This document shows, piece after piece, positions 1,590 to 62,600 of a DNA stretch of 64,000 nucleotides. Each line of letters opens with the position of its first letter. Position 1 is the stretch's first letter. The notes under the pieces were generated by a model, which was not told where the DNA came from, did no database searches, and saw only the letters and a list, made by a program, of their open reading frames with translations. Location: positions 20,866,015 through 20,930,014 of the forward strand of contig NC_036461.1 of the NCBI RefSeq assembly GCF_002775205.1. The letters are read 5' to 3'. The DNA comes from Xiphophorus maculatus (Eukaryota > Chordata > Actinopteri > Cyprinodontiformes > Poeciliidae). Made by a program: the position numbers and the translations under genes.

Positions 1590-1744
1590 GAATGGGTCCG
1601 ATCTACATGAACGAGGTGAAGTGTGTCGGGAACGAGAAGTCGATCTGGAGCTGCCCGTTTAAAAACATCACGGCGGAGGATTGCCAGCACATGGAGGACG
1701 CCGCTGTTCGCTGCAACATCCCGTACATGGGCCAGGAGAACTCG
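1590..1744 (+). CDS. loxl3: loxl3 exon: second half of SRCR domain 3
   Basis: Begins after a pyrimidine tract and AG at 1588-1589. The first two bases finish a split glycine codon. It encodes [11 protein letters not shown] ... [10 protein letters not shown] ... [12 protein letters not shown], with the conserved NIT glycosylation sequon and SRCR cysteines. The end at 1744 assumes the weak donor GTCAGA, chosen because it gives phase 0 and the expected length before the IRI start of SRCR4. Confidence 0.88.
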
Positions 1745-4700
1745 GTCAGACCGAACCGCCTCACCCACATGTTCATTTCAACTGTTTGGTTGCTTCATGT
1801 CACGTTGTTTGGTTTTAGATTAGCAAGTAAAAAATGACTTACTGAGTTTTTCACACCAGGTTGTATTAGTTTAAGATTTTTATAGAATAGCAGAATGGAA
1901 CAAACTTCTGAAATATCTGTTGTTCCCATTCCTTTTAGTGCATTCATTTGTGTTTATTACCAAGTACATCTAAAAGAAAACTTTAATATTATGAAAAAGT
2001 TTAATAATTATCACCTTTCACAATGTGAAAAATAAATAGATTTATGACACGTAGAGAGAAATATTTACAGCCTTTTTATCTTGTTGACCACGGAGAACAG
2101 ATAAAACCCAAAATTCAGTGTCTCAGAAAATTTGAATGTTACATTAGATCATTTAGAAATGTCTAATTTGCTGATTGGGATGTGTCACTATGACTCTGGT
2201 AATATATGAATTCAGCTTCTGGAGTCAAAAAATATTATTTTTCACAATATTCCATGTTTTTTAGATGTGCTTATACATAGATTTGCTACTCTAACACTAA
2301 TCTGTTACAGAAATGTGAGATGCAAAGTTAACTGCAGGAGCTACTGAGCTAGTTAACTAGTTAGCTAACTACAAGAGATAGTTAACTAGCTAGATAACTG
2401 CAGAAACTACATAGCTAACTGCCGGAGCTAGTTAGCTAACTGCAGAAGCTAACTGTGGTTAGCTAACTTTCAAAAAAACTTGCATCTGTAACTTGCTAAT
2501 ATTTAAACTCTTTTCAAAATATGCTCCTCGAAAAACATATTTTAAGGTAATGTATTAGCAAAGCATTTTTTAACAGTACTTAATTTTCAATTTGCACAGC
2601 TTCATGTTTTGTTTTTTATTGACCTGATCTCCAGTAGATGCCACAAATGGTTTGCGTAAAATTTCCCCTTTCGTCAATGAAAGGAACAAAAATAAAATCT
2701 TCACTAGTAACTTTGAGCTTTTACACAAAACATACAGAAATATTTCTGACCAAACCCAGAGCTTCCTTTTGTTTCAGGAGGATTTGTGAGGAATCTGCTC
2801 CGTCTGTGTCTACGCTCTGCTATGTAGCATGTAGCATGTAGCCTAACCCCCTGGTCTCACACAGATCCGGATCACAGGCGGACGGAGCCGCTTTGAGGGC
2901 CGCGTGGAGGTGCTGAGCTCTGACGCTAACGGGACGGAGAGCTGGGGTCTGATCTGTGGTGAGACCTGGACCACCAGGGAGGCCATGGTAGCCTGCAGGC
3001 AGCTGGGTTTGGGCTACGCTAACCAGGGCCTGCAAGTAGGTTATTAACAAAGACAATTTGCTGCTGCAAAGCAAATGTTCGCTTTCTTTTGGTTTATATT
3101 GCATATGCAAATTTAATGTACTGTCAGATGGGCAGTTTGTTTGTTTTTTTAATGTTATGGTGCGTTCTTTCTGTAGAACCAGTGCAAAACTAACATATTC
3201 TCACTATGGCCATAAATGGATGATGCATTTGGACTTCTCTTCTTTTTCAGTGTAGAACAAATTATGCAACAAACAACTTGGATACATTTCAACAAGAAGA
3301 ATTAGCTCCAGAATTAGATTACAGACTTCCTCTGATCCTCAAAATTAACTATAGTTTAACATTTTACGTGTTGAACGCTAATCCAAACTCTTAAAAACTT
3401 AAATGAGAAAACCAACAAACAAACAAATAAAAACAGTGTGGTTAGTCAACATTTTACTGAGGATTCAATATTTAATCTAATATAATTGGACCTGTACGTA
3501 TAATTTTGACACTAGGCACAATCATTTGAAACACGTGAACTCTCTTCTTGTTATTTAAATGTATTTAGGTAGTTTCTACCAGAATCCTTCCACCAGGCAA
3601 AAAGAACTGTTCAAATCTATCTGTAAGGAGCTAAAAATGTATCTGACATCCACGGCCACGTTGAGGGTGTGTAAACGTTCTGCTTCTGTTTGAAGAAAAA
3701 GAAAACCGCATCATTTCGGCCTGACTCTAAGGTCTGACTGCAGCCTGTTTGGCAGCAGCGACCGGAGTGTGTTAACCGTCACGTAACAATGTGTCTGGGA
3801 ATCTAATGTTGTTGGTCAGCCGCTACTGATGTCTGTGAATTTACTGCGTGGTCAAATATACGACACTGGGAGTCATTTAATTACATCAAGAGGCTTTGCT
3901 TAATTCGAATGATAAATAAATGTAGTTTTTTTTTTATTATTATTTTCATTATTAAAGCTGCAGTATGTAACTTTTCTAAGAAATATTTTTTTACATAGTT
4001 GTTGAAATTGTCACCATGTCGCGAAAATATGGCCTGACAAAAAAAATTGAGTTCCTCTAACTTTCCTAGTGCTAACTACAAACAAGCAATCAGAGAAAGG
4101 AGGTGGGCCTTAGCGCTGTAAATCACATAGCTCGCTGCTATGCTAATACTAAGGCTAGTTAGCATAGCCACCTATGACGGCAGATAAATGTTTTTTCTGT
4201 GATGGTAAATTGTTTCTCCGCCATTAGGATATTTAGCAGGGCATACATGAGTTGATTGACAGCGCTAAGGCCCTCCTCCTGGCTGTGATTGGTTGTTTTG
4301 GGGGCATTTCTTTAAACCGCAATGGTAGCTCAGAGAGGATGTGGAGGAGATTGATTGATTTATTTATTTATTTTTTCACAACCAACTGTCACAACATGGT
4401 CCCAGTTTTAGCAAATATGTTTATGGTTCTATACAGTATTATTATAATTATGCATATGCAATATATATCTTTCTGGACATGGAATATTTACATTGTTGCC
4501 ACAGGCCTGTTCCATGTGGAAGAGCTAAAAATGGCCCCATGCAGAGCTTCTAATCAAAGTCAGAGCTGCTCACCACCGTGACCTCATGTGGAAACCACGG
4601 CGATCCCCTCGGCCTCGGCAGACTAACCAGCACATTTTCCATCGACTCCATATAAACACCGGGTAGTCTTTAGTTTAGACGGGTCGCAGACAGGACAGGA

Positions 4701-7700
4701 AGCTTGTCCCCCGTCTGACTCCCAGCAGGACGCTCCCACAGATCCGGATAGCGGGCGGCCGAAGCAGCTACGAAGGCCGGGTGGAGGTTCAGGTTGGGTC
4801 CAAGTGGGGCACAGTGTGCAGCACAGGCTGGACGACGAAGGAGGCCATGGTGGCCTGCAGGCAGCTAGGGCTCGGCTACGCCATGCACGCCGTCACCGTG
4901 AGTAGGAGCTGAAAATGTGTGGCACAGCTAGAAAACAAATGTTTGAAGCCGTTTCATCCCCCACTAGATGAGATAAGCAGGCGAGCTAAAACACTTAGCA
5001 ACGATAGCTCATTATTTTTCCACATCTGATCATGCCAAATTGATTGAAAGGTAAAGATTTGCACCAACAAGTTGATGAGGATCGGAGTAAACAACTCAAA
5101 TATTTGGAAGTCATCTTATATGAAGAATCATCACAGTAGAGGTTATGAGAGTCACAAAAACAGAAGCTAGTAAGCTAAAAATGAATGTTTTAGTTGTTTA
5201 ATTGAGATGTAGAGTCAGTCACAGTAACAATAAAAAAAACATGATTCTGGGCATTGTGAAATAATTACTTGAATCTTCTGGTTCTTACGTTAAAATCATT
5301 TGACTTTTATTCCCAAAATGAATCCAAAGCACAGAAGTATATGATACATCACCTAAAAAACAATATCCTGACCACTTCCAAACTTTTACAATTCAAATGT
5401 CAATATAATAAAAAAACAATGTCTTATGACAAACCAACAGAATGAAGCAGGTCATTGTGCAGCCATGTCTTTGCGCCACTTTATTTTCAGTTCATGCAAA
5501 GAATAGCGAGTGACAGCGGGGGGGTGGAGAGGGGGGGCCATCTAATGTGCCAACAGCAGAGCTCATTTTTAGCTTAGCGCTTTAGCGTTTTTGCTAACTG
5601 TGAAGATGTTTAGCGCACTGAGCTTCCCCTAAATGAATTTTTCCAAATAAATTTTAAAGTGCTATTTAAGGTGCTATAATTCACCGGACTGCTTTGTAAA
5701 CTTCCAGTTGGATAAAGTTTGACTTCTGTGTTGAAGTTTTGGCTAGCGGCTGTCTCCACGTAGCTAGCCGTTCATGCTCACGCTCCTATTTACCGTAGGG
5801 TGAAGTTCGGTTTTCCCTCCTCACTTTCTCATTTTGTTTTCCCCAATCACTTTATTTAGAACAAAATAGAACAGACAGAAGAATAGAAGATATAAACATA
5901 AATTCAACATAATAATAGACATAATGTCAACTGAAATCCCAGTGTAATACCTCAATGTATGTGGTTGTGTTGTACATAAATGTTTTTTGGGTTTTTTTTT
6001 TTAATGAAGCGATGTGCCTTTTGTATTTAAGTAAATATTGAATCAATATCTGGTTTATTGGGTATTTATTAGCATCTTTAGTATTATTTTTAAATTGTAG
6101 TTGTCTTGAACTTTTTGTCTCCAGTCAGCAGCCAAGTCCTGCACATCTGGTTTACAGAGCTGCCACATAAAACCTGAACTCTGAGGCGCCGCGTGTGAAT
6201 CTGTCCTGATCATCATGCACTGTTTCTCTCTCTTTCTTTTGTTCGTTCGTTTCTGTGTTATCTTTTTTTTTTTAACCGCCGGTAAGGAAACCTGGTACTG
6301 GGACAGCAGCAACGTCACAGAGATGGTGATGAGCGGCGTGAAGTGCACAGGAAGTGAGATGGCTCTGAGCCAGTGCCAGCATCACAAAACCGTCAACTGC
6401 CAGAAGGCGGCCGCAAAGTTTTCAGCAGGAGTCATCTGCTCAGAGAGTGAGTTAAAGCCCCGGAAACAACCAGAAGGGGGCAGTAACTAGTTACATTCGC
6501 TGGAGTAACTTTTAATCACTTTCAGGAGTATTTTACTGACGCTGTACTTTTTACTTTTACTTGATTAACTTTATGATGAAGTATCGCTGCTCTTAGTTGA
6601 GAATTATTTCTGGATACACTCTGTTGGTAACTTCATTAAATGAAGAACAAACTTATTTTAGCCATTAATACACCATAAAAAAATGAGTTTTTGTCAAAGT
6701 TTCATAAGTTTCAATTTAAAGAAATGTTTCTTTTGCCTGATTTTGTTATTTTGTAATTATTCAATGAATTATTTTTATTTTGGTCCTTGAAATACCAAAA
6801 CTTCCATATAACTTTAGATTTTGGTCCATCTGATGATGTAATTTTTAAATATTAACTGATTAATGTTTTGATCAGTTACTCAGTATTTTTCTAAATACCG
6901 CCTCACCCACATGTTCATTTCAACTGTTTGGTTGCTTCATGTCACGTTGTTTGGTTTTAGATTAGCAAGTAAAAAATGACTTACTGAGTTTTTCACACCA
7001 GGTTGTATTAGTTTAAGATTTTTATAGAATAGCAGAATGGAACAAACTTCTGAAATATCTGTTGTTCCCACATTGTGTTTATTACCAAGTACATCTAAAA
7101 GAAAACTTTAATATTATGAAAAAGTTTAATAATTATCACCTTTCACAATGTGAAAAATAAATAGATTTATGACACGTAGAGAGAAATATTTACAGCCTTT
7201 TTATCTTGTTGACCACGGAGAACAGATAAAACCCAAAATTCAGTGTCTCAGAAAATTTGAATGTTACATTAGATCATTTAGAAATGTCTAATTTGCTGAT
7301 TGGGATGTGTCACTATGACTCTGGTAATATATGAATTCAGCTTCTGGAGTCAAAAAATATTATTTTTCACAATATTCCATGTATTTTAGATGTGCTTATA
7401 CATAGATTTGCTACTCTAACACTAATCTGTTACAGAAATGTGAGATGCAAAGCTAACTGCAGGAGCTACTGAGCTAGTTAGCTAACTGCAGAAGCTAACT
7501 GTAGTTAGCTTACTTAAAAAAAAAAAAACTCGCGTACTAATATTTAACCTTTTCAAATTGTGCTACTATAAAAACATATTCTAAGGTAATGTATTAGCGG
7601 AGGTATTTTTTAACAGTGCTTAATTTCCAACATGGAGTATTTATACTTGCACAGCTTCATGCTGAAGAAGTTAACTTTTGGGTCTCTGGAAGCAACAGGA

Positions 7701-10434
7701 AGTGTCTTCCACAACAATTCACACACACATTGTTCCACATATTAATGCTTTAGTATAAAATGTTGATGCTTTAGAATGAAATGTTGAAATGAGACGGTCC
7801 CTCAGCCCAGTCTCTGTTCCCCCCCCCCTGCGCGTCCAGCCACCTCCGACCTCGTCCTGAACGCCTCCCTGGTGGAGCAGACGGTCTACATCGAGGACCG
7901 TCCTCTGCACATGCTCTACTGCGCCGCCGAGGAGGACTGCCTGTCCAAGTCTGCGGCCAAAGCCAACTGGCCGTATGGACACCGGCGGCTGCTCCGCTTC
8001 TCCTCCCAGATCCACAACGTCGGCCGGGCCGACTTCAAGCCCAAAGCCGGGCGCCACTCGTGGGTGTGGCACGCCTGTCACGGGTAACGTACAACATAAA
8101 GTCGGATATGGATTTAAACTCAAGACACAACGAGCAGGAAACGATGAAAGATATGTGTGACAGAGCAAACATATTGTTATTATTACTTTTTTGTGGTCGG
8201 TTAAAATATCCTTTGAAGGAAGGAAAGAAACAAAACAAACAGCCAGTTATAGTGGGATGAACTGGATCTACGCTTGTGTGTTAGAATGGCCTAATCAAAG
8301 TTTCCACAGGTGGGCTCAATAATGTGACAGATTTTTCTGTTTCTTTGTGAAGTGATTTGAAAACCTTTCATCTCTTGTCTACCTTGAGGTTTGTGGCTGT
8401 AACATGACATAAAAATGTAAAAAAGTGAATATTTTCGACAGCTTCAACTAGTTCATTAACTGCTGTAAGTTACAGAAAACAATAGAGCAACGTAGCAACA
8501 AAATACCACAACTTTCAACATTATGTTGACCTTGAAGTAGATGATTTTCTGGTTTGAGTCTAATTCATGTCGCTCTGACTTCACCCAGCCACTATCACAG
8601 CATGGACGTCTTCACCCACTATGACCTGCTGAACGCTAATGGCAGCAAAGTGGCAGAGGGCCACAAAGCCAGTTTCTGCTTGGAGGACACAGAGTGTCAA
8701 GAAGGTCAGTCTCATGCTTTGACTAGACGAGGTTACAATCTGGAAAAAAAAGAAAACATTTTATTTTATGTGATCGTCACCCAGAGAAGAACTTTGCTTA
8801 TGACTGTAAATTATACAGATACTTATTTATTTGTACTCCATTCATGTGGACCATTATTCATGTCCTTCTCAGTAATAAGTGGATAATAATAGCAATCAAA
8901 ACTTTTCATGTTGACCAGTTACTTCATTGTGTTCACTGCTGAGCTCTAAGTATTTATAGTTGGTTCAGGTCCGTCAATGGTAAATGGAGCTTTTCCTGTC
9001 CTTTTGACAACCCAAAGCACTTTAGAAATTGATTGGTACCAACATGTGACAAGAGGAAACTGAAATCAAACCCACAACCTTCTGATTAGAAGACAATAAC
9101 TCTACCTACCCACTGAGCCGCTGTCTTCCATCCAAAGATTTTCAATCACCTCTTTGAAAAATATTATATTACCTCCAATCTGAAGAAACATGCTGATTAA
9201 ACCTAAGTCTGCCAACGGTGTGGATAGTTTGGGTGAGCCGTGAGCGTTCAGTTGATGTCTTTAGGCTCCCACGGTAACTCCCACTCTTTATCCGTATCGA
9301 TCAGGTATTTCCAAACGATACGAGTGCGCCAACTTTGGCGATCAGGGCATCACGGTCGGTTGCTGGGACTTGTACCGCCATGACATTGACTGCCAGTGGC
9401 TTGACATCACGGACGTCAAACCTGGAAACTACATTATGCAGGTGAGTGTGTGGGGTTTTATGTGGAGCACGCAGCCTGCCAGGTGCCGGCGTGACCATGT
9501 TGTATCACAGATCTTTCTTCCTTCAAATTCTCTGATGACTAAGCGACAGAGTTGCACAGTGGCCACAAACCATCAACTCATCAGCTGCTGTTACCAGGCA
9601 GCAGCTGATGAGTTGATGATCCTTCTGCTAGAAGGATATTTGAATTGGGGGAGAGTAGTGAACCGAGTATTGAGCCTTGAGGAACCTCATAGTTTGAGAC
9701 CATCCAGATTCTGCGTGATATTGAATGTGGTGTCAGTACGGTGTGAAGGGCACTCAATGTGTCACTATGCACCTAGAAATCAACCAGTCGACATATTGGC
9801 TCCTTAATTTTGGGTGACTGACAATCAACCGATACTTTCATGTGAAACCGATCTTATCCAGTGATCTTGACTATCTCTGCAAATGTCTGAAAATCCAAAA
9901 ATTGATATCAGTAAGGATCTTTTTTAAAGATTGGGTATTCTGCCAGAAAAATGCAATTGTTGCCGTCAAGTACTATAGACGGTACTTGAAGTCTAAGCCG
10001 TTATCTCATTCAACATGACATGGCTGTCATAGTTCAGGATCTTTCTACAAAGATCTCTCAATGACGTTGAGATGAATTTTAAAAGTTGCAACTTTTGATT
10101 GATTACTTCAGCGTAGCCAGTCTTCGTCGTCTATCTCTGCTTTTTCTCGCCCGTTCAGGTCGTGATCAATCCGAATTACGAAGTGGCCGAGAGCGACTTC
10201 ACAAACAACGGCATGAAATGCAACTGTAAATACGACGGACACAGGATTTGGCTCCACAACTGTCACATCGGTAACCACTCAGGAACAGCCAAACTGCTCA
10301 AACGTTATGTAAAACTTGTTGAAACTCACTATAGCTGCCACCTTTTCTAATGTCTTCCAGGCGACGCATTCAGTGAGGAGGCAGAGAAAAGATTTGAGAA
10401 ATACCCCGGACAGATAAACAACAGGATCTCCTAA
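1590..10434 (+). CDS. loxl3: Lysyl oxidase-like 3, 3' part of the gene (gene-level entry)
   Basis: Secreted copper amine oxidase that deaminates peptidyl lysine in collagen and elastin precursors to start cross-linking. Coding exons here: 1590-1744, 2865-3035 or 4742-4897, 6287-6446, 7840-8083, 8589-8704, 9305-9441, 10159-10270 and 10361-10434. All have GT/AG borders and matching phases, giving 388 or 383 complete codons to the TAA. The order is second half of SRCR3, SRCR4, then the catalytic domain. Seen in the catalytic part: the copper-site cluster [11 protein letters not shown], the lysine of GHKASFC (codon 8665-8667) and the tyrosine of LYRHDIDC (9373-9375), which by family knowledge form the LTQ cofactor. 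LOXL3 rather than LOXL2 or LOXL4 is indicated by stretches such as [32 protein letters not shown] and [14 protein letters not shown]1, SRCR2 and the first half of SRCR3 lie upstream of the window. Whether it is loxl3a or loxl3b cannot be told here. Confidence 0.95.
1755..2606 (+). repeat. Intronic duplication, copy 1
   Basis: Matches 6897-7661 base for base over most of its length, starting 11 bp after the donor of the 1590-1744 exon and ending at CAGCTTCATG. Differences are a short insertion near 1928-1950, point changes, and an expanded GCTAAC-rich tract at 2338-2475. No clear terminal inverted repeats or target-site duplication were found. Confidence 0.92.
2338..2475 (+). repeat. GCTAAC/CTAGTT degenerate tandem repeat
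   Basis: Imperfect units such as GAGCTAGTTAGCTAACTGCA repeat about six times. The matching site in the second copy (about 7454-7510) has about two units, so the tract has expanded or contracted since duplication. Confidence 0.75.
2865..3035 (+). CDS. loxl3: loxl3 alternative exon 4A: first half of SRCR domain 4, long form
   Basis: Exactly 57 codons, phase 0 at both ends, acceptor ACACAG and donor GTAGGT. It reads [17 protein letters not shown], then a loop with an NGT glycosylation sequon, [10 protein letters not shown], and [17 protein letters not shown]. Of the two copies this is the closer to the usual LOXL3 sequence (GLICG ... YAN.GLQ). It is the likely alternative to 4742-4897. Confidence 0.88.
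3036..4741 (+). other. loxl3 intron between the two alternative exons
   Basis: Holds a MITE-like block at 3955-4470 and otherwise AT-rich intron. No further SRCR-like exon is visible. Confidence 0.6.
3955..4470. repeat. MITE-like element, AAAGCTGCAGTATG family
   Basis: Starts AAAGCTGCAGTATGTAACTT. Its second half (about 4225-4420) is the reverse complement of sequence in the related copy at 35356-35920; for example CCTCCTCCTGGCTGTGATTG matches CAATCAGAGCCAGGAGGAGG there. The copy therefore seems rearranged into an inverted arrangement. Confidence 0.65.
4742..4897 (+). CDS. loxl3: loxl3 alternative exon 4B: first half of SRCR domain 4, short form
   Basis: Exactly 52 codons, phase 0 at both ends, acceptor CCCACAG and strong donor GTGAGT. 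It reads [31 protein letters not shown] and [17 protein letters not shown]. It is homologous along its whole length to 2865-3035 and keeps the same cysteines. It lacks the glycosylation sequon and five loop residues. It has no stop codon or splice damage, so it looks functional. Confidence 0.85.
6287..6446 (+). CDS. loxl3: loxl3 exon: second half of SRCR domain 4
   Basis: Begins with [20 protein letters not shown] and ends SAGVICSE plus one base of a split codon before donor GTGAGT. It carries an NVT sequon and the SRCR cysteines. The acceptor follows a T-rich tract, reading CCGGTAAG before GAAACC. It can join either 4A or 4B in phase 0. Confidence 0.93.
6470..6483 (+). promoter_or_regulatory. 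CTCF-like motif in a loxl3 intron
   Basis: CCAGAAGGGGGCAG is a consensus-quality CTCF core, 24 bp after the 6287-6446 exon. CTCF next to an alternatively spliced region can slow polymerase, but this is speculation here. Confidence 0.5.
6897..7661 (+). repeat. Intronic duplication, copy 2
   Basis: Direct-orientation copy of 1755-2606, located in the intron between the SRCR4 exon and the first catalytic exon. It is shorter because the GCTAAC tract is contracted. It begins ACCGCCTCACCCAC and ends CAGCTTCATG. Confidence 0.92.
7840..8083 (+). CDS. loxl3: loxl3 exon: start of the lysyl oxidase catalytic domain
   Basis: 244 bp, starting after CGCGTCCAG. It encodes [20 protein letters not shown], then [12 protein letters not shown], and [18 protein letters not shown], and ends in WVWHACHG, half of the copper-binding histidine cluster. 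Donor GTAACG follows two bases of a glycine codon. Confidence 0.96.
8270..8480. mobile_element. Tc1-like transposon remnant
   Basis: Non-coding intron sequence resembling the end region of common fish Tc1-like elements (AGAATGGCCTAATCAAAG; GTGGCTGTAACATGAC). Recognised by eye; the borders are approximate. Confidence 0.4.
8589..8704 (+). CDS. loxl3: loxl3 exon: copper site and LTQ lysine
   Basis: Encodes [20 protein letters not shown] and [18 protein letters not shown]. The lysine of GHKASFC (8665-8667) is the LTQ lysine in this family. Acceptor CACCCAG; donor GTCAGT. Confidence 0.96.
8975..9135. repeat. Decayed SINE/LINE-tail-like repeat
   Basis: Contains CAACCCAAAGCACTTTAGAA and CTACCCACTGAGCCGCTGTC. 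It is an older relative of the repeat at 31079-31240, which shares the AAAGCGCTT block. Confidence 0.5.
9305..9441 (+). CDS. loxl3: loxl3 exon: LTQ tyrosine
   Basis: Encodes [20 protein letters not shown], then [20 protein letters not shown] and NYIMQ. The tyrosine codon at 9373-9375 is the LTQ partner. Acceptor ATCAG; donor GTGAGT. Confidence 0.96.
9571..9618. repeat. Perfect inverted repeat, 20 bp arms, 8 bp loop
   Basis: Arm CATCAACTCATCAGCTGCTG at 9571-9590 is repeated as its exact reverse complement at 9599-9618. It lies in the intron after 9441. Confidence 0.95.
9810..9905. repeat. Dispersed repeat, copy 1 of 3
   Basis: Shares GTGAAACCGATCTTATCCA and CAAATGTCTGAAAA with the blocks at 19041-19215 and 57100-57300. 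Confidence 0.65.
10159..10270 (+). CDS. loxl3: loxl3 exon: catalytic domain, penultimate
   Basis: Encodes [20 protein letters not shown], then [17 protein letters not shown] and one base of the next glycine codon. Acceptor GTTCAG; donor GTAACC. Confidence 0.96.
10361..10434 (+). CDS. loxl3: loxl3 last coding exon and stop
   Basis: Encodes [20 protein letters not shown], then NRIS and TAA at 10432-10434. This matches the normal LOXL3 C-terminus. Confidence 0.95.
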
Positions 10435-16345: not shown

Positions 16346-17658
16346 CTGAAAGAGAGAAAAAGACAAACAGAGGACATCAGATAGAACATAGCGAGTGAGT
16401 TTGCTTACTTAGAGCAAACAAAACAATGTCTCACCGGTACGCTGCAATTTCAATGTCAAGGGCCATCTTGACGTTGAGAAGGTCTTGGTAATCTCTCAGG
16501 TAGCGCGCCATCTCTTGCTTCGCCTCAGTAATGTCCTGCTCCAGTTCACTTATCCTCACCTACAAATAGAAAAAACACAGCTCCTCATCATCGCAAATGA
16601 TAGGAAAGTTATAATCATAATATAGCATTCTGATTCAGACTCATTCTTACCTGGTATTTCTCAACCTCCTTGGCCTGTGTGTCCTCCAAATCCTCCAGTT
16701 GCTTGTTTAGGGAGTTGATGACATTCCGCAGAGCTTCAATCTCAGACGAACGAGACTGAAGCAGCCTCCGGTACTCCATAGTCTCTTCCCGGATGGCGTG
16801 GACAGCTTCGTTGTTCTTGCTGGCCATCTCCGCCACGCTCACAAACTTGCTCTTGTACCAGTCCTCGGCGGCCTGCATGTTCTTGTTGGCGAGCCGCTCG
16901 TACTGAGCCCGGATGTCCCTTAGGGCGGTGGAGAGGTCAGGCCTAGACAACTCTACGTCAACGCTGATGTTTGCCACCTGCAGCTGGTCCTGGAGCTCTG
17001 CTTGCTCTTCTGCAAAGACTTTCTTCAGGAAGACTATCTCGTCACACAGCGAGACCACGGTGGCCTCCGTGTCACAGTTGTAGAGGACGGCCCGACTCGC
17101 CTCCTCTCTGGCCCTCTGCAGGCCCTCCTCAGCATCCAGACGGCGCCTTGCCTCGTCTTCGTAGCGTTCCTTCATCTGGTCATACACGTCCCGCAGGTAG
17201 TCCCTCTCTGCCTCCATCTGCATCTTCTCGTTGTTCTCCGAGTCGATCATGGCTCTCAAACTCCGAGCTTCCCCCTCATAGAATGCCTGCAGCCGGGACG
17301 GGTCGTTCTGCCTCCTCCTCAATGCGTCCAACTCGGCCAGCAGGGCTCGGTTCTGTAGCTCAAGATGCCTCACCTTCTCGATGTAAGTGGCGAAGCGGTC
17401 GTTCAGGTCCACAAGCTGCTCCCTCTCCTGGGACCGCATTTCCAGCAGCTCGGTGTTGATGGAACTCACCTGAACCAGATCCATCCTCTGTGAGCCGTCC
17501 GGCAGCAAAGAGGTTGTCGTCTTCAGGATCCTCTTTCCGGATGGAGGAGCACGGAGAGAGGAGTACAGAGAGGACGACATGGAAGACTTGGTGGTAGGTC
17601 GGGAGCCTTTGCAGCTGTCCCAAGGACGTCGGTGGGAGAAGAAAGACTCGTAGCTCAT
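16285..17658 (-). CDS. Type IV intermediate-filament protein, NEFL/internexin-like, nearly tailless (gene-level entry)
   Basis: Cytoskeletal filament subunit with a central coiled-coil rod. Three exons: 16651-17658, 16435-16559 and 16285-16345, total 1194 bp and 397 residues. The Ser/Arg-rich head is about residues 1-80. The rod starts at [19 protein letters not shown] and ends at [20 protein letters not shown] then EGEEIR, both consensus helix boundaries. [20 protein letters not shown] and [10 protein letters not shown] are typical of coil 2. The 125 bp middle exon, ending inside the RKLLEGEE arginine codon, is the type IV (neurofilament/internexin) gene structure, not the many-intron type III one. 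Rod sequence is closest by eye to NEFL. After the rod only [10 protein letters not shown] follows, so the long acidic tail is absent. I give no symbol because the fish orthology is unclear. Confidence 0.9.
16435..16559 (-). CDS. Intermediate-filament exon 2 (rod end, 125 bp)
   Basis: Acceptor TTTGTAG. Encodes [20 protein letters not shown], then [20 protein letters not shown] and Y plus two bases of R. Donor GTGAGA. The 125 bp size is diagnostic for type IV genes. Confidence 0.94.
16651..17658 (-). CDS. Intermediate-filament exon 1 (head and most of rod)
   Basis: 336 codons from the ATG at 17656-17658, ending ...KEVEKYQ before donor GTAAGA. It has an open frame throughout, with the heptad pattern of rod coils 1A, 1B and 2. 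The longer antisense ORFs inside it are shadows. Confidence 0.94.
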
Positions 17659-17820
17659 GATGATTTTTTGTTGTGTATTTTTTTTAGGGTTTTAAGAAAA
17701 AGATGTATGTTTTAGTTTCAGAAGATTTTTTTTTATGTCCCCCTTGTTCTGCACACCATCGGTGAGGATGAGTGTGCGTTTTGCACTGCACCAGTTCAGT
17801 GATGCTGCAGATCCGGAGCC

Positions 17821-23213: not shown

Positions 23214-23873
23214 TTAAAATATCTTCAGTCTTTTGCCGAACGCCCTGGCCCCCTTGGGGACCCTCTGGCCAGCCTGGTCCTTGGAAAGCGGGCAGTACTT
23301 GATGGTGTGCGCGTTGTCGCCGTTGGCGCTGCAGAGAGGGCAGGTGTACGCCCGGAGTATCGGGCACAGGACCCGCCCGTCCGCCGTTTTCAGGATGTGG
23401 GTGCCGTAGACCTCCTCCGGGGCGCCGTTATTCCGGCAGAAGACGCACACCTTCGGCTCCGGCTTCCCCCTCTGAGTCTGCTTGCGCCGTCGCTCGGCGG
23501 AGAACAGGTCGAAGGCGGCGAAGCTCCCACCGTGTGAGGGGGACTCGCCGCCCCCCAGCTGCTCGTACGGTCTGAGGAGAGAGATGCGCTCTTTCAGGTC
23601 GTAGATGGAGATCGGCGGGGAGCCCGCGGGCGCCCCGCAGCAGCAGCAGCTGTCCAGGGCTCCGTCCGCGTCTCTGGCCTGGCCGACCAGGCAGGAGCAA
23701 ACCGGGGAGTCGTCCTCCAAACCCAGAGTCGCTTTCAGAGACTCGGTGATGGAGTTCGGGTTGCAGATCGGGCTGTTGATCTTGTTTTTGGCGACAAGAG
23801 TAGACAACCCGAGGTAGTCGTTCCAGAAATTAAACGTGTAGTCATAAGGTGAGCGCATGTCCAAGAAGTCCAT
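23214..23873 (-). CDS. nanos1: Nanos homolog 1, complete single exon
   Basis: RNA-binding translational repressor that works with Pumilio and recruits the CCR4-NOT deadenylase. It acts in germ cells and neural tissue. 219 residues, intronless as usual for NANOS1. Residues about 10-27 ([18 protein letters not shown]) match the NOT1-interacting motif. The C-terminal region has the two CCHC zinc fingers: CVFC, then H of YGTHI, then C of GRVLC; and CPLC, then H of NAHTI, then C of KYC. The linker has [14 protein letters not shown]. After the fingers comes a short basic end. Start ATG at 23871-23873 is followed directly by the conserved N-terminal motif. The antisense ORF over the same DNA (22947-23537) is a shadow. 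NANOS2 and NANOS3 lack this long N-terminus. Confidence 0.95.
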
Positions 23874-26800
23874 CCTGTCGGAGCTGCGGGGTTTTAATAA
23901 TGTCCACAGGAGAGAAGAAACAGTTGGGATGCTGCGTTTGTGAGCATGAGGAGCCTGCGATTCGCTTTTTCTTCTTCTCTGCTCTCTTGTTGAGTCTGGA
24001 TTGCTGAGTTTTGAGCGTGTAGGCGCTGATAAACTCCCCTGAATAAAGCATGGGGGCGTGGCTTAGATCAAGCTGATTTACTCTGTGGCCCCCATAGGAG
24101 GATCCACAACACCACAACCATTCTGTAACAATCCTACTGTAAACTTCCCTCTCTGTGTTATCTCCCCTGTAAGCAGTGGAAATCTGCTTTTTTTTCTTTC
24201 TTTTTATTTTTCTGAATTTAATTTAAAGGGACAGTTCAAGAAAAACATTGAAGTATTTCTGCTTCAACACATTTATACTCAAGTGAAAGTAAAAAGTAGA
24301 AAGTACTCAATAGTTAAAAAGTATTTGATGTGGGATGCTGCATATTTTGGTATAGATCTGAAACTAGGTTAATACAATGCCAGTATTGCCAATACTGATA
24401 CGGACACCAATACCGATACTTCTTATTATTTTTCATTTTGATATATCATCACACTATTGACCTCTAGGTGTTTTTTGCAGTTTTTACCCCTGAATTGCTT
24501 TAAGGATAGAATTTGGATGAAGTTCATGTCAACAAAATATTTTAACCAACATATTAACGTGATAATAGAAAAATGAAACAAACGTGCATTTTTTTTTCTT
24601 AAGTAAACAAAATGCAAAGAGTTATAATTTCAGAGAAAATCAAAACAAATTCTTTTTGGAGGTAGAGGTGAGAAGCTACAATAAGAAAAATAAACAGCAT
24701 TTCAAGAGGAAATTTGAAACTAAAGTATCAATCTTATCACAGTTTATTGGTCCAATACTGATATCAATGGGGTATCAATATTACCAGTGTCTTGGATCGA
24801 TCTGCCCAGCTTTAGTATTAAAAATTATACTGAAATACTGAGCAGCTGATCACAAAATCTGATTTAGCATATTAAAATGTCGTCAGATGGACAAAAATAT
24901 ACAATTATGAGCAATTTCTGTTTCTTGAGACAGTGAACAGGGTAAAGTACTTTTAATGACAATATGTGGCGTTTACTGTAAATTCACTTATCCTAAAAAT
25001 AACACAGCAGGCTCAGCAGATAGAAAATATGAACACAGCTTGCGTGTACAAACAAGATGTCTCACTTTACCATAAACTGTGGGCGTATGTCTGTATCTGG
25101 TGTACTGTTTTTTTAATTGAAATACATTTATTTTCATTCAGGGAAGTTACTTGCATTGGCAGAGCATCCAGAAATTTTACTCAAGTAAAATACTTGCTGA
25201 GAATACTGCTTAAGTAAAGTAAGAGTACAACATGACAAAACTACTAAGAAAAGTATTTTTTGTGTCTGAAAAGTGACTCAAGTAAATGGAACTGTTTAAG
25301 TGTAAGTGGTTTCTACTCACCTCTGCTTTAAACAACTCTCAGCAGCATTATGCAAACGATGTTTCATTAACTTTTCAAAGGTCATCACTCTAAAATGCTA
25401 TACCTATTTTTATTTAAATTAGGTTTGTATTCTTTACTCAAGTCTCACTAACTTGTTTATTCAACTCTAGTAATGTGAGTAATGTACATGTTTGGCCGGT
25501 GTCCGCCCTGACTTCGAAGCTGTTTATTTTATTTAGATTTTTTGCTTTTGTTTTTTACCTCTGAGTGGTGAACTTTCTATTATCCGTATGTTTATTTGAT
25601 ATGGAAAAGGCCCATGCACTTCCATCATATGTGCCCTCTGTCCACCGCACTTTTTCAGCCGTTACAACGGTTAATCCGTTGACAAAATGTAGTAAAGTGT
25701 TTTTCCGCCTTTAAGTGCAACATTAGCGTTAAGATGCTCGCACCAGTGGGTTCGGACCGGAGACGTGTTGCTGTGCAGAGGTGCCCACCGGTGTGTTAGA
25801 ATCATGGCACAAAACCATGACAGACATATTAAAAGGCAAAAATCTTCTTTTTTTTTCTAAACAAACCGAGTAAGTAGAGTAATGCTGTTGGACGCAATGC
25901 TGGCTTGTTAACAACAATAAGTCACGTTAAGCTAGTTAATAGGCTGCCCATTGTGTTGTTTTTCTTCCGAGCTGGGTAGTAGAGGTTACATTTACTTGAA
26001 TAACTTTTTGGGGGAGGGGCACTGCACTTTTCACTTCTACTGCTAGGAGTAGTAATATGATGAACTATTGATACTTATGATTGGGTAGACTGGTTTTGCA
26101 TAAAGAAATAGACTAAAGTGATTGGAAACATTAGATTCTTAGACTTCTGCAACATCTGAGCAAATGTTTATGCAAATCTGAGCTTGCTCAGCATTTTCTA
26201 CATGTCAGTGTTGACATCATTCATTTTTTTTGTATTAATAAACAAAATGGGTACTTTGTTTGAAAGTTATGCGCTTGTTTATGCATTTATATTGAATAAA
26301 ATGCCTGTTTACTGTGCCACCCCAAAATCAACAAAACTCCTCCGCAGCCGGGCTTGATTGTTACTGTTTGTGCAGAGTCCACCAGAACCAGAGTGGAGGG
26401 TGGGATCTCTGTGCTGCATTCAAGTCTGAAAAGGAGTCGTTGACAACGCACTTCCCGAGATTCTTGTCCAGTTTGAAAGAAAGGTGAGCTTTCCATCTGA
26501 TTTTGTTTAATAAGATGAAGGAAATTCTGCAAGTTTTTAATTTATATCTTGTTCAGTAGCTCGAGCACACATGCACATGACGGCTCCTCACATCCTCTCA
26601 TTTGCAATAACCAGCCAGTTTGATGCTGTATTAAAGGGGGGATTTGTATTGATGATATTTGGCTGATTGAGACTGGAAAAAACACAGTTTGTTGTTGAAA
26701 TAATGAATGACTGAGCAACAGTCTGTGGCATTAATATAATAATCAGCTGATAGCAGGTTGGAAAATTGCTGTTGCTCCTTGAACTGGACAACCATCAAAA

Positions 26801-35355: not shown

Positions 35356-35920
35356 TAAAGCTGCAGTGTGTAATTTTTATAAAAACTGTTTTTTGCATAT
35401 TTGTTAAAACTGTTACTATGTTGTGACAGTACAACACATGTGTCAAACTCCAGTCCTCAAGGGCCGCTGTCCTGCAACTTTTAGATGTGCCTCTGCTGCA
35501 CCACACTTGAATAGAATAATTAGGCCATTAGCAAGGCTCTGGAGAACTGATCTACACAAGGAGGAGGTAATTAAGCCATTTCCTTCCAGCATTTCGTACC
35601 TGTGGCACATCTAAAAACTGCAGGACAGCAACCCTCGAGGACTGGAGTTTGACACCCCTGCAGTACAATATGAGAGATATAATCTGTGGCCTCCAACTCC
35701 TACCATCTGAAGAAATGCACCACTTCTGAAAGAAAAACAACCAATCAGAGCCAGGAGGAGGGACTTAGTACTGTCAATCAACCTTGTGTACTCACTACTC
35801 AATGTGCTAAAGGAGGAGAAACAATTTACGGTTACAGGAAAACCATTTATCTGTTGTCAGTGGTAGCTATGCTAACTAGCCTTAGCATTCACAACAGACT
35901 CTGCTACCAGAGAGCATGTT
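35356..35920. repeat. AAAGCTGCAGT-family MITE, interrupted
   Basis: Begins AAAGCTGCAGTGTGTAATTT and resumes after the inserted element with TATGAGAGATATAATC ... AACCAATCAGAGCCAGGAGG. Related to 3955-4470. Confidence 0.65.
35435..35660. mobile_element. hAT-like MITE with 8 bp target-site duplication
   Basis: 226 bp. Ends are inverted repeats: left CACATGTGTCAAACTCCAGT, right reverse-complements to CAGGGGTGTCAAACTCCAGT. It is flanked by the exact 8 bp duplication CAGTACAA (35427-35434 and 35661-35668). Non-coding. The family, with CAGGGGTGTCAAACTC ends, is common in fish. Confidence 0.92.
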
Positions 35921-59490: not shown

Positions 59491-59527
<37 letters not shown>

Positions 59528-59599
59528 TGCTCAAAAAAATAAAGGGAACACTTTAAGTGTTAAACACCTGTTTAAGTGTTCCCTTTATTTTTTTGAGCA

Positions 59600-59664
<65 letters not shown>

Positions 59665-62600
59665 TAGATATAGATATATATACAGTACAGACCAAAAGTT
59701 TGGACACAACTGTGTGTCCAAACTTTTAGTCTGTACTGTATATATATATATATATATACGGATTTGAACCGCGGCAGAATTCACTTCAACTGAACTGAGG
59801 TTTATAGGCAGACCAGAGTTCGTATCAGAATTTGCATTCACACGTCTTCAAACAAACTGGACCTTCTAGACAAACAAACTTCAGTTGGATTAAAGTTGGA
59901 CTAAAGCAGGGCTGGTGTGGTGCATCCTAAAATGTCCTTCTAAATAAATATGGTCAGAGACTGCAGTGTACATAACGTACTGATTTACAGTAAGTTGCAT
60001 TAAAGAATGAGGTTTTAACATGACCAAATGTTCAGAAGATTGATGCTAACACACCTAATATCCTAAGTGTTCTGCACACTTTTTTATTATTATCATCTGT
60101 CAGGCTAGAAAACTGCAAATTTTAGGTCACATGTCACCTCGAGGTTTTAAGGCCTGGAGGTGACAAGTTGTAAAAACTGACTTTTGCTATTCTCAAAAGA
60201 ACCAAACACAAACTTGTCACTTAAACGTTTTTCTTAGTGAAGAAAAGATCACAAATTCAAACACACCCGAAAGAGATGGGGAGTCATTTTATAAGAATTA
60301 TAAAATATGTTGTGTTTTGGGACGTTTGCTTCCTGGCTGAACCCAGCAGACAAGATATGGGAATCTTATGACTTGTGGTAAATCACTGACTTTTCTGACA
60401 CATTTTTTTTTTTAAAACACCTTCAGAATCAAAGGCCGTTCTTCCCACAGGAGCAGAAACAAACAGAAACCGCCTCAACTAACAAAAACAAATGTAATCA
60501 GTGCCTCTGTGTGTTATCTCAGCTGCAGGGTGAAGGAACCGGCTCTACAGAAAGAGAACAAAAAGCAATAAGAATAATCCATAAGGTGGGATATTCAGAA
60601 AATAAAATGAAAACACTATTTGAAATAGTTTTTATACAAATTAATTGAAGTAGTGAACCTACAGGCAGCTCCAATCCTTTAAAAAGCAAAAATAAGTTAG
60701 CAGAAAACATTCAAAAAAAATTTTAACATCAATGAGAAAAATGCGTAAGTTAAGGGGGAAACCATTTTCTTTCTTATTCAGAACTAAGACAAACTTTTAC
60801 TATTATTCCACAGTTTCTATGTGGAATAATAACAATAATAAATAGTTAAAGTTCAATTTGACCATTGAACTTTAATTATTACATAAAACTGTTCAAATGA
60901 TCATAAATATAATGACTACTGCTGGATATAATATATATTAGTCAATTATTGATGGTGTTTTGGTTATTGATGTTTGTTCTGTATTTCGGTGAAATAATGA
61001 TTGTTCATCCACTGTCATTAAAATTAAACAGATAATGTACTGATGGCAAAACTATTAAATATGGGTTTAGTTGTTATATGTATGGATTATACATATAATA
61101 AATGGAAGATTATGGAAAAAAGAAAACATTTTGAGATTATGCTTCATTTTTTTATGTATTCAGACAAAAATGGTCATGAAAGCCTAAAAATCAGCTAAAA
61201 TATCCTCTTGTTGCCGAGAGGCTTCAAGTTTTGAAACGTCAGCTCCCCATTTCACCATGACGACCTGGAGTAAACAAATACGTACGTCGATACACTGGAT
61301 GGCTCTCTCGCAGTCTTCCTTTCGGGTGTAGTTCACAAACGCACACTGCAGCTCCAGCAGCATCTTGATGCTGTACACCGTCCCCACTCTGAGAGAGGCA
61401 AACACCGACGACGCGTTAACAACATGCAAGTTTAAATTGGTACAAATCATTTTTCTACGACAAGGAAAAAAAGAGAAGATATATTTTAACCTCCATTTTG
61501 GTTTATTTTGAAAAGAAGATTTCAGGTTTTTACATTTAAAGTTTGGTTTAAGTAAACTCGGGATTTCATGCAGAGGGGTCAGTGTTGTTTTACAGAAGTT
61601 TATTCTGCATCAACAGAGTAAACAGTCGGGGACTCGGAGTGATGAGTGAGTCACTAGGGTATGTCACAATAAGCAATAAATCAATCAACGAGCTCAGTAA
61701 TTTTTATTTGCATGATTTATCAGTTGGTATTTTCTCCAAAACTACCAATTTTATAATTTTATATTTTCTACTGAAAACTGGACGACAAAAGCTTTGGTCT
61801 CAACTTCAGAGATTTCATAATTCATTTTATGTGATTTTTCTGTTTTTTTTTATTTTAGGTATTTAAAATATCTTCCAGTTCCACTGTTAAATCCTCATTA
61901 GAATTTAAAGTTTATTGATCTTTCAGAATGTGTTCTTGCATTATTATATCGTTACCGTTATATTATTGGAAAACTGTCTCCAAACAACAGCATTGCCGTT
62001 ATTACAATAACTTCTGGGACAAGCAACATGTTATGGTCACAGGAAAATAAGTCAGAACTCACCTGCTGAAAAGCTCATGGAGTTTTGGATAAGTCATGGC
62101 AGGACCCAGAGTTCCCACCCAAACCGAAAACAGCTCTCTTAGAGAGAAACACACGCTTACTCATCTTAACTCAAAAGCACAGATCGCTGCTCATTTCTGA
62201 AACACAGAACTGAAAACAAACAAAAACAGGACAAAGAGAAACCAACGTCTCAAACGTGATCGACCGCTTACGGTTTGGCTGAACTCCTGGAGCGAGGAGT
62301 CGGCGATTGGGATTTGGATCTGATTTGGCCCAGACAGTCGATATCTTTGACTTGCTGCATTCGTGGACGGGCCGTTTGCAGGACGGTCCACTCTCCGTCA
62401 TCGTCCTCCTCCTCCTCTTTGTCTTCATTGTTGTCGTCCTGATGCGACGGCTGGTTGAATTTGTCCCAGACGGCTCGAGCCCCTGAAAGAGGAGGAGAGC
62501 GGACAGTGTGGAGCAGCTGTAACATTCGGAGAGACCTGCTCGGTGTCTTTGATTTTATTTTTTTTGGAAACGTTACCTCCAGGGTCTTTGCTTCTGTTCC

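Follow-up and report, generated by a model that had tools for sequence, protein, structure and literature searches.

The stretch analysed here, referred to as the window, comprises 64,000 nucleotides (nt) of the Xiphophorus maculatus genome (C19:20866015-20930014), and its left end carries a gene for a lysyl oxidase, an enzyme that cross-links connective tissue, with LOXL-type SRCR domains upstream of the catalytic domain, which we take as loxl3. Here, we found that the first half of the fourth SRCR domain (SRCR4) of this gene is encoded twice, by exons 4A and 4B, and that the two are probably an ancient tandem duplicate, selectively maintained as an alternative exon pair of which one or the other is spliced into the transcript. 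In such an arrangement the SRCR3 exon, ending at position 1744, would be followed by 4A or by 4B, with the common exon 4C, beginning at 6287, coming next. The outcome would be two LOXL3 forms, identical except for the first half of SRCR4, which adjoins the catalytic domain: the 4A form would have a long loop with an N-glycosylation sequon, and the 4B form a short bare loop and an altered turn after the first cysteine. The gene was compared within this one fish genome (704,300,149 bases searched, in 101 contigs) and with human LOXL2 and LOXL3 sequences. The elements concerned are given below, with a slash inside a sequence marking exon borders here and throughout the text.

1590..1744, + strand: second-half exon of SRCR3, the upstream partner, with the weak donor TCG/gtcaga
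2865..3035, + strand: exon 4A (57 codons), encoding the first half of SRCR4 with a LOXL2-like long loop, an NGT sequon and GLICGETW
3036..4741, + strand: intron of 1706 nt separating 4A from 4B, containing 4145-4299, which has an inverted copy at 35734-35889
4742..4897, + strand: exon 4B (52 codons), encoding the alternative first half of SRCR4 with a short, sequon-free loop and GTVCSTGW
6287..6446, + strand: exon 4C, common second half of SRCR4 (ETWYW...VICSE), with 4 cysteines

The original prediction had described 4A and 4B as homologous, stop-free exons of 171 nt and 156 nt in phase 0-0, and this is what we found at these coordinates. Their borders read cacacag/ATCCGG...CAA/gtaggt (4A) and cccacag/ATCCGG...ACC/gtgagt (4B); the upstream exon ends in MGQENS at 1744, where it aligns without gaps to human LOXL2 ...MGLQKKLRLNGG, and the downstream exon begins with ETWYW at 6287. 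In reciprocal tblastn searches of the LOXL loci the two exons matched each other with E ~5e-18. The proposed differences in the loop were also borne out: 4A has the NGT sequon and the longer loop, and GLICGETW of 4A is replaced by GTVCSTGW in 4B. When 4A or 4B is joined to the shared exons, both frames remain open to the C-terminal stop, giving 337 and 332 residues, respectively. Moreover, either exon completes an SRCR domain using 4C, with six cysteines in both cases; 4A+4C scored 76.6 bits and 4B+4C 84.7 bits with the Pfam SRCR profile (PF00530, curated cutoff 26.1 bits), in comparison to 28.2 bits for 4C alone.

The sequences of the two exons point to a long history. Over the 52 aligned codons 33/52 residues are identical, and identical bases amount to 40/52 at the first, 39/52 at the second and 24/52 at the third codon position. 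Among the codons encoding the same residue in 4A and 4B, 18/33 are identical, as are 7/18 fourfold sites. Under a pairwise codon model the silent divergence (dS) was saturated and the nonsynonymous divergence (dN) was ~0.29. A ratio of the two (omega) equal to 1 was rejected, with twice the difference in log-likelihood (2 delta lnL) of 32.97, and the 2 delta lnL cost of fixing dS at 1, 2, 3 and 5 was 15.30, 8.16, 5.65 and 3.24 units, respectively. The flanking introns of 4A and 4B showed no homology beyond that of shuffled sequences (the observed scores were reached by 18 and 25 of 200 shuffles). As to the protein, 31 columns do not vary among the SRCR4 halves of five other LOXL sequences, those of four genes of this fish and of human LOXL2; 4A keeps 26/31 of them and 4B 25/31, and 4 of the 6 departures of 4B are common to 4A. 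Since the silent sites are saturated, dN is low, neutrality is rejected and the flanks are unrelated, it can be concluded from these comparisons that both exons have long been held under purifying selection.

This evidence bears directly on two other explanations. Silent divergence of this extent already refutes the idea that the second copy arose by segmental duplication in recent times or through faulty assembly, to which we give practically no chance. One recent duplication does exist in the same gene, between 1755-2590 and 6897-7630 (97% over the first 605 columns). However, it contains neither 4A nor 4B, and these two differ at 53/156 aligned coding bases and have unrelated flanks. It is also very unlikely that 4B (or 4A) is a relic exon whose splicing has been lost, although the modest scores of the 4B acceptor and of the upstream donor, given below, would fit such a loss. 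With its saturated silent sites, low dN and retained invariant columns (25/31), 4B is unlike a neutral relic, and both its frame and its splice dinucleotides are intact.

Whole-genome searches with each exon, in which the best candidates were scored, revealed four other LOXL-type genes, on contigs C12, C20, C22 and C5. Those on C12 and C20 are presumably loxl2-like and those on C22 and C5 loxl4-like. The latter two, in each of which one exon alone encodes the first half of SRCR4, are located as follows.

C22:13977514: loxl4-like gene (presumed label)
C5:22168487, - strand: loxl4-like gene (presumed label)

A second SRCR4 first-half exon was found in 0/4 of these genes within the locus stretches compared. 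They also provided yardsticks for the age of the pair. Over four other exons, dS was 1.95 for the loxl2-like pair, 4.9 for the loxl4-like pair, 1.94 for loxl3 against loxl2 (C12), and ~20, thus saturated, for loxl3 against the loxl4-like gene on C22; for the counterpart SRCR4 exon alone, it was 0.66 for the loxl2 pair and 1.85 for the loxl4-like pair. Such yardsticks are rough and not clock-like, as the value for loxl3 against loxl2 is no larger than that for the loxl2 pair; the loxl3/loxl2 split is regarded as older than that of the two loxl2-like genes. What can be said from these values is that the silent divergence of 4A and 4B appears at least about equal to that of the loxl2-like and loxl4-like gene pairs, which we take to be products of the teleost genome duplication.

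The exon duplication likely, although not provenly, occurred inside the LOXL3 lineage, because five residues common to 4A and 4B (columns 3, 8, 36, 43 and 51) are absent from the five other SRCR4 halves, and the tree gives moderate support. There, 4A and 4B grouped together at 86/91 and 85/89 under two models, a group that was not starred; the SRCR3 first halves formed a separate starred group. Plain identity speaks against this origin, with 4B sharing 33/52 residues with the C12 loxl2 exon, the same as with 4A (33/52). A derivation of 4B from loxl2 was considered as well and is disfavoured, being 5.5 lnL units worse (p-AU, from the approximately unbiased test, 0.067), which is short of formal rejection. 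No second loxl3 gene was seen among the best candidates scored in the whole-genome exon searches, and no convincing third copy of the exon was found in the LOXL loci, even at relaxed E. As one would expect of DNA from a fish, searches by peptide patterns gave no relatives among viral contigs and other genome contigs. How old the pair is, that the four other LOXL genes have one copy each and that the long loop of 4A is LOXL2-like all go beyond what the original prediction had seen, and the long selective maintenance of both exons strengthens the observation.

On the basis of domain logic and precedent, one-or-the-other use of the exons would be the most sensible model, and we hold it to be quite probable. 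As had been claimed, joint inclusion would yield an extra half-domain; it would bring eight cysteines instead of six. Nevertheless, several findings weigh against exclusive use. Exclusion by frame shift is ruled out, as 171 and 156 nt are both multiples of three. The donors gtcaga, gtaggt and gtgagt have no U12 consensus and are U2-type, which leaves no U2/U12 incompatibility. Simple steric exclusion depends on a branch point lying no more than about 50 nt from the donor, and the intervening intron of 1706 nt is too long for it. RNA pairing between the six flanks (15 pairs) produced no pair that stands out, the best being reached by 3/60 shuffles, in a scan that covered local 200-nt flanks in one genome. 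The product containing 4A, 4B and 4C incurred no penalty from Pfam; it scored 121.6 bits, divided over two stretches, and the profile by itself is thus no bar to joint inclusion. Finally, the acceptor of 4B scored only 2.3, a value reached by 29% of the + strand AG in the window, on an approximate consensus matrix.

Both exons might be used non-exclusively, one being constitutive and the other a cassette, with appreciable double-exon transcripts that are tolerated or functional. The frame would be kept (171 + 156 nt), no forbidding mechanism is visible in the sequence, and the joint product is still recognized as SRCR. However, in the group A disulphide pattern the two cysteines of the added half-domain pair into the second half, and 4C is single; in addition, human pairs of like kind are described in the text of PMC9741552 as mutually exclusive substitutions. 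Taken together, we consider non-exclusive use improbable and prefer exclusive use of 4A or 4B. A passive mechanism is not required for this class of exons: according to PMC5740500, exon lengths that are no multiple of three occur in 60% of human clusters, while steric interference is potentially present in 9% and U2/U12 incompatibility in 0.79%. As the passive mechanisms are all absent from the loxl3 pair, exclusivity would need regulation, e.g., repression of one exon.

The splice sites had been described originally as good, and this held only in part. With the same approximate matrix the donors of 4A and 4B scored 7.1 and 5.8 and the 4A acceptor a fair 5.7, whereas the 4B acceptor is modest and the upstream donor TCG/gtcaga is weak, with a score of 3.3 that is reached by 12.8% of the + strand GT in the window. 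An AG precedes the 4B acceptor by only 13 nt. As far as scores from approximate matrices go, the weakness of the upstream donor and the inequality of the acceptors (5.7 vs 2.3) would suit a choice that can be tilted. One pair of short words lies close to 4A.

2826..2838, + strand: pair of AGCATG words, 27-39 nt ahead of exon 4A

Between 1745 and 6286, no GCATG core occurs on the + strand outside these two words, and this number (2) does not exceed the rate in the window (48 in 64 kilobases). They could be taken as a possible RBFOX-type repressor site upstream of 4A, although the lead is a weak one.

The exchange of 4A for 4B would alter a loop of SRCR4. Exon 4A encodes the LOXL2-type long loop bearing the NGT sequon, while 4B encodes a short loop which is sequon-free, and both loxl2-like genes of the genome have NGS at the place of the 4A sequon. 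We assume that the residue matching this sequon is N455 of human LOXL2. The LOXL2 construct of PDB 5ZE3 reads RQGS at this stretch. Glycosylation of human LOXL2 takes place at N288, N455 and N644, and its importance for stability and secretion has been stated (PMC10380739, PMC10532419). In comparison to the human LOXL2 SRCR4 loop with N455 (PMC10380739, PMC10532419; PDB 5ZE3), exon 4A is alike, with a sequon in the same loop, while 4B differs in that its loop is shorter and without a sequon.

In human LOXL3, a review locates a putative BMP-1 site (GDD, 446-448) within SRCR4, cleavage at which would yield a C-terminal product of 306 residues (PMC6678131). In the fish gene, 305 residues extend from after the G of 4A CG/ETW to the stop, so the putative BMP-1 position coincides with the 4A/4B difference. 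However, the human GDD is kept by neither exon (GET in 4A, STG in 4B), hence cleavage at this position in this fish appears doubtful. A BMP-1 cleavage switch as a firm claim was dropped for this absence of GDD. Tentatively, one may imagine a switch in LOXL3 SRCR4, in place since about the teleost genome duplication or earlier, between a glycosylated long loop and a bare short loop beside the catalytic domain, at the position of the human putative BMP-1 site, with splicing setting secretion, processing or activity by tissue or stage; we see this as possible rather than probable. In the preferred model of exclusive use, the loop change would presumably alter glycosylation, partner binding or enzyme activity. 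The fourth SRCR domain is the target of the antibody AB0023 in the case of LOXL2 (PMC10380739), and loss of LOXL3 causes craniofacial and spinal defects in mice, as loss of loxl3b causes craniofacial defects in zebrafish (PMC6678131). Two naturally occurring exons that have been retained over a long time and alter just this loop would allow a controlled comparison of the role of SRCR4. Moreover, studies of loxl3 in such fish may concern two proteins rather than one.

The remainder of the gene and its surroundings can be described briefly. The SRCR3-SRCR4-catalytic stretch matched human LOXL2 (PDB 5ZE3) with E 2.4e-98, and its first catalytic exon is identical to LOXL2 5ZE3 at 52/81 residues. 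For human LOXL3 we presume 65/81, a figure only as good as the human LOXL3 sequence used for it. The gene is taken as loxl3 since it appears nearer LOXL3 than LOXL2 in this comparison with the two human sequences. Downstream of 4C it continues as follows.

7840..8083, + strand: catalytic-domain exon 1, ending in the copper-binding stretch WVWHACH
8589..8704, + strand: catalytic-domain exon 2 (HYHSMD...ECQE)
9305..9441, + strand: catalytic-domain exon 3, ending ...NYIMQ
10159..10270, + strand: catalytic-domain exon 4 (VVINPN...HNCHI)
10361..10434, + strand: last coding exon, containing the stop

The recent local repeat in the loxl3 introns (1755-2590 and 6897-7630) is in direct orientation, and beyond its first 605 columns it matches at 81% over another 171. 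It flanks 4A, 4B and 4C, and recombination could in principle delete them; other genome matches to the repeated segment were short fragments, among the best 40 of 79 candidates. Elsewhere in the window, long open reading frames are present at 16618-17691 (-) and 23217-24062 (-), which may resemble an internexin-like intermediate filament protein and nanos1, respectively, and the neighbours of loxl3 presumably differ from those of human LOXL3. Self-complementary stretches at 59494-59758 are probably simple (AT) repeats.

In the literature, leaving aside subscription papers, supplements and automatic annotation (which could already list both isoforms), we found no prior description of duplicated or mutually exclusive SRCR4 exons in LOXL3, and "LOXL" is absent from the main text of PMC5740500 and PMC9741552, supplementary gene lists aside. 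Alternative splicing of the LOXL3 SRCR region itself is reported for human LOXL3-sv1 and LOXL3-sv2 (PMC6678131). These variants differ from the fish pair, however, in that whole exons are dropped (1, 2, 3 and 5, or 4 and 5, the latter SRCR2), and no swap within SRCR4 is described there. Another parallel is offered by exons 4a and 4b of OGDH (PMC7969005), likewise an ancient vertebrate exon pair swapping a functional segment, whose exclusion is attributed to distant branch points, which restrict both intron length and transposon insertion. In contrast, the loxl3 intron is 1706 nt long and includes a sequence of which the window has an inverted copy in another place. With the mutually exclusive and tandem duplicated exon pairs (Hatje et al. 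2017, PMC5740500; PMC9741552) the loxl3 pair shares adjacency, homology, length and phase, as well as the swapping of part of a structured domain, ancient origin and purifying selection. It differs from the mutually exclusive exon class of PMC5740500 in having none of the passive exclusion mechanisms, and its splicing is a prediction. Human tandem duplicated exon substitutions are described as mostly ancient and functionally important (PMC9741552). In keeping with them, the loxl3 pair is a fresh instance of a well-known gene structure.

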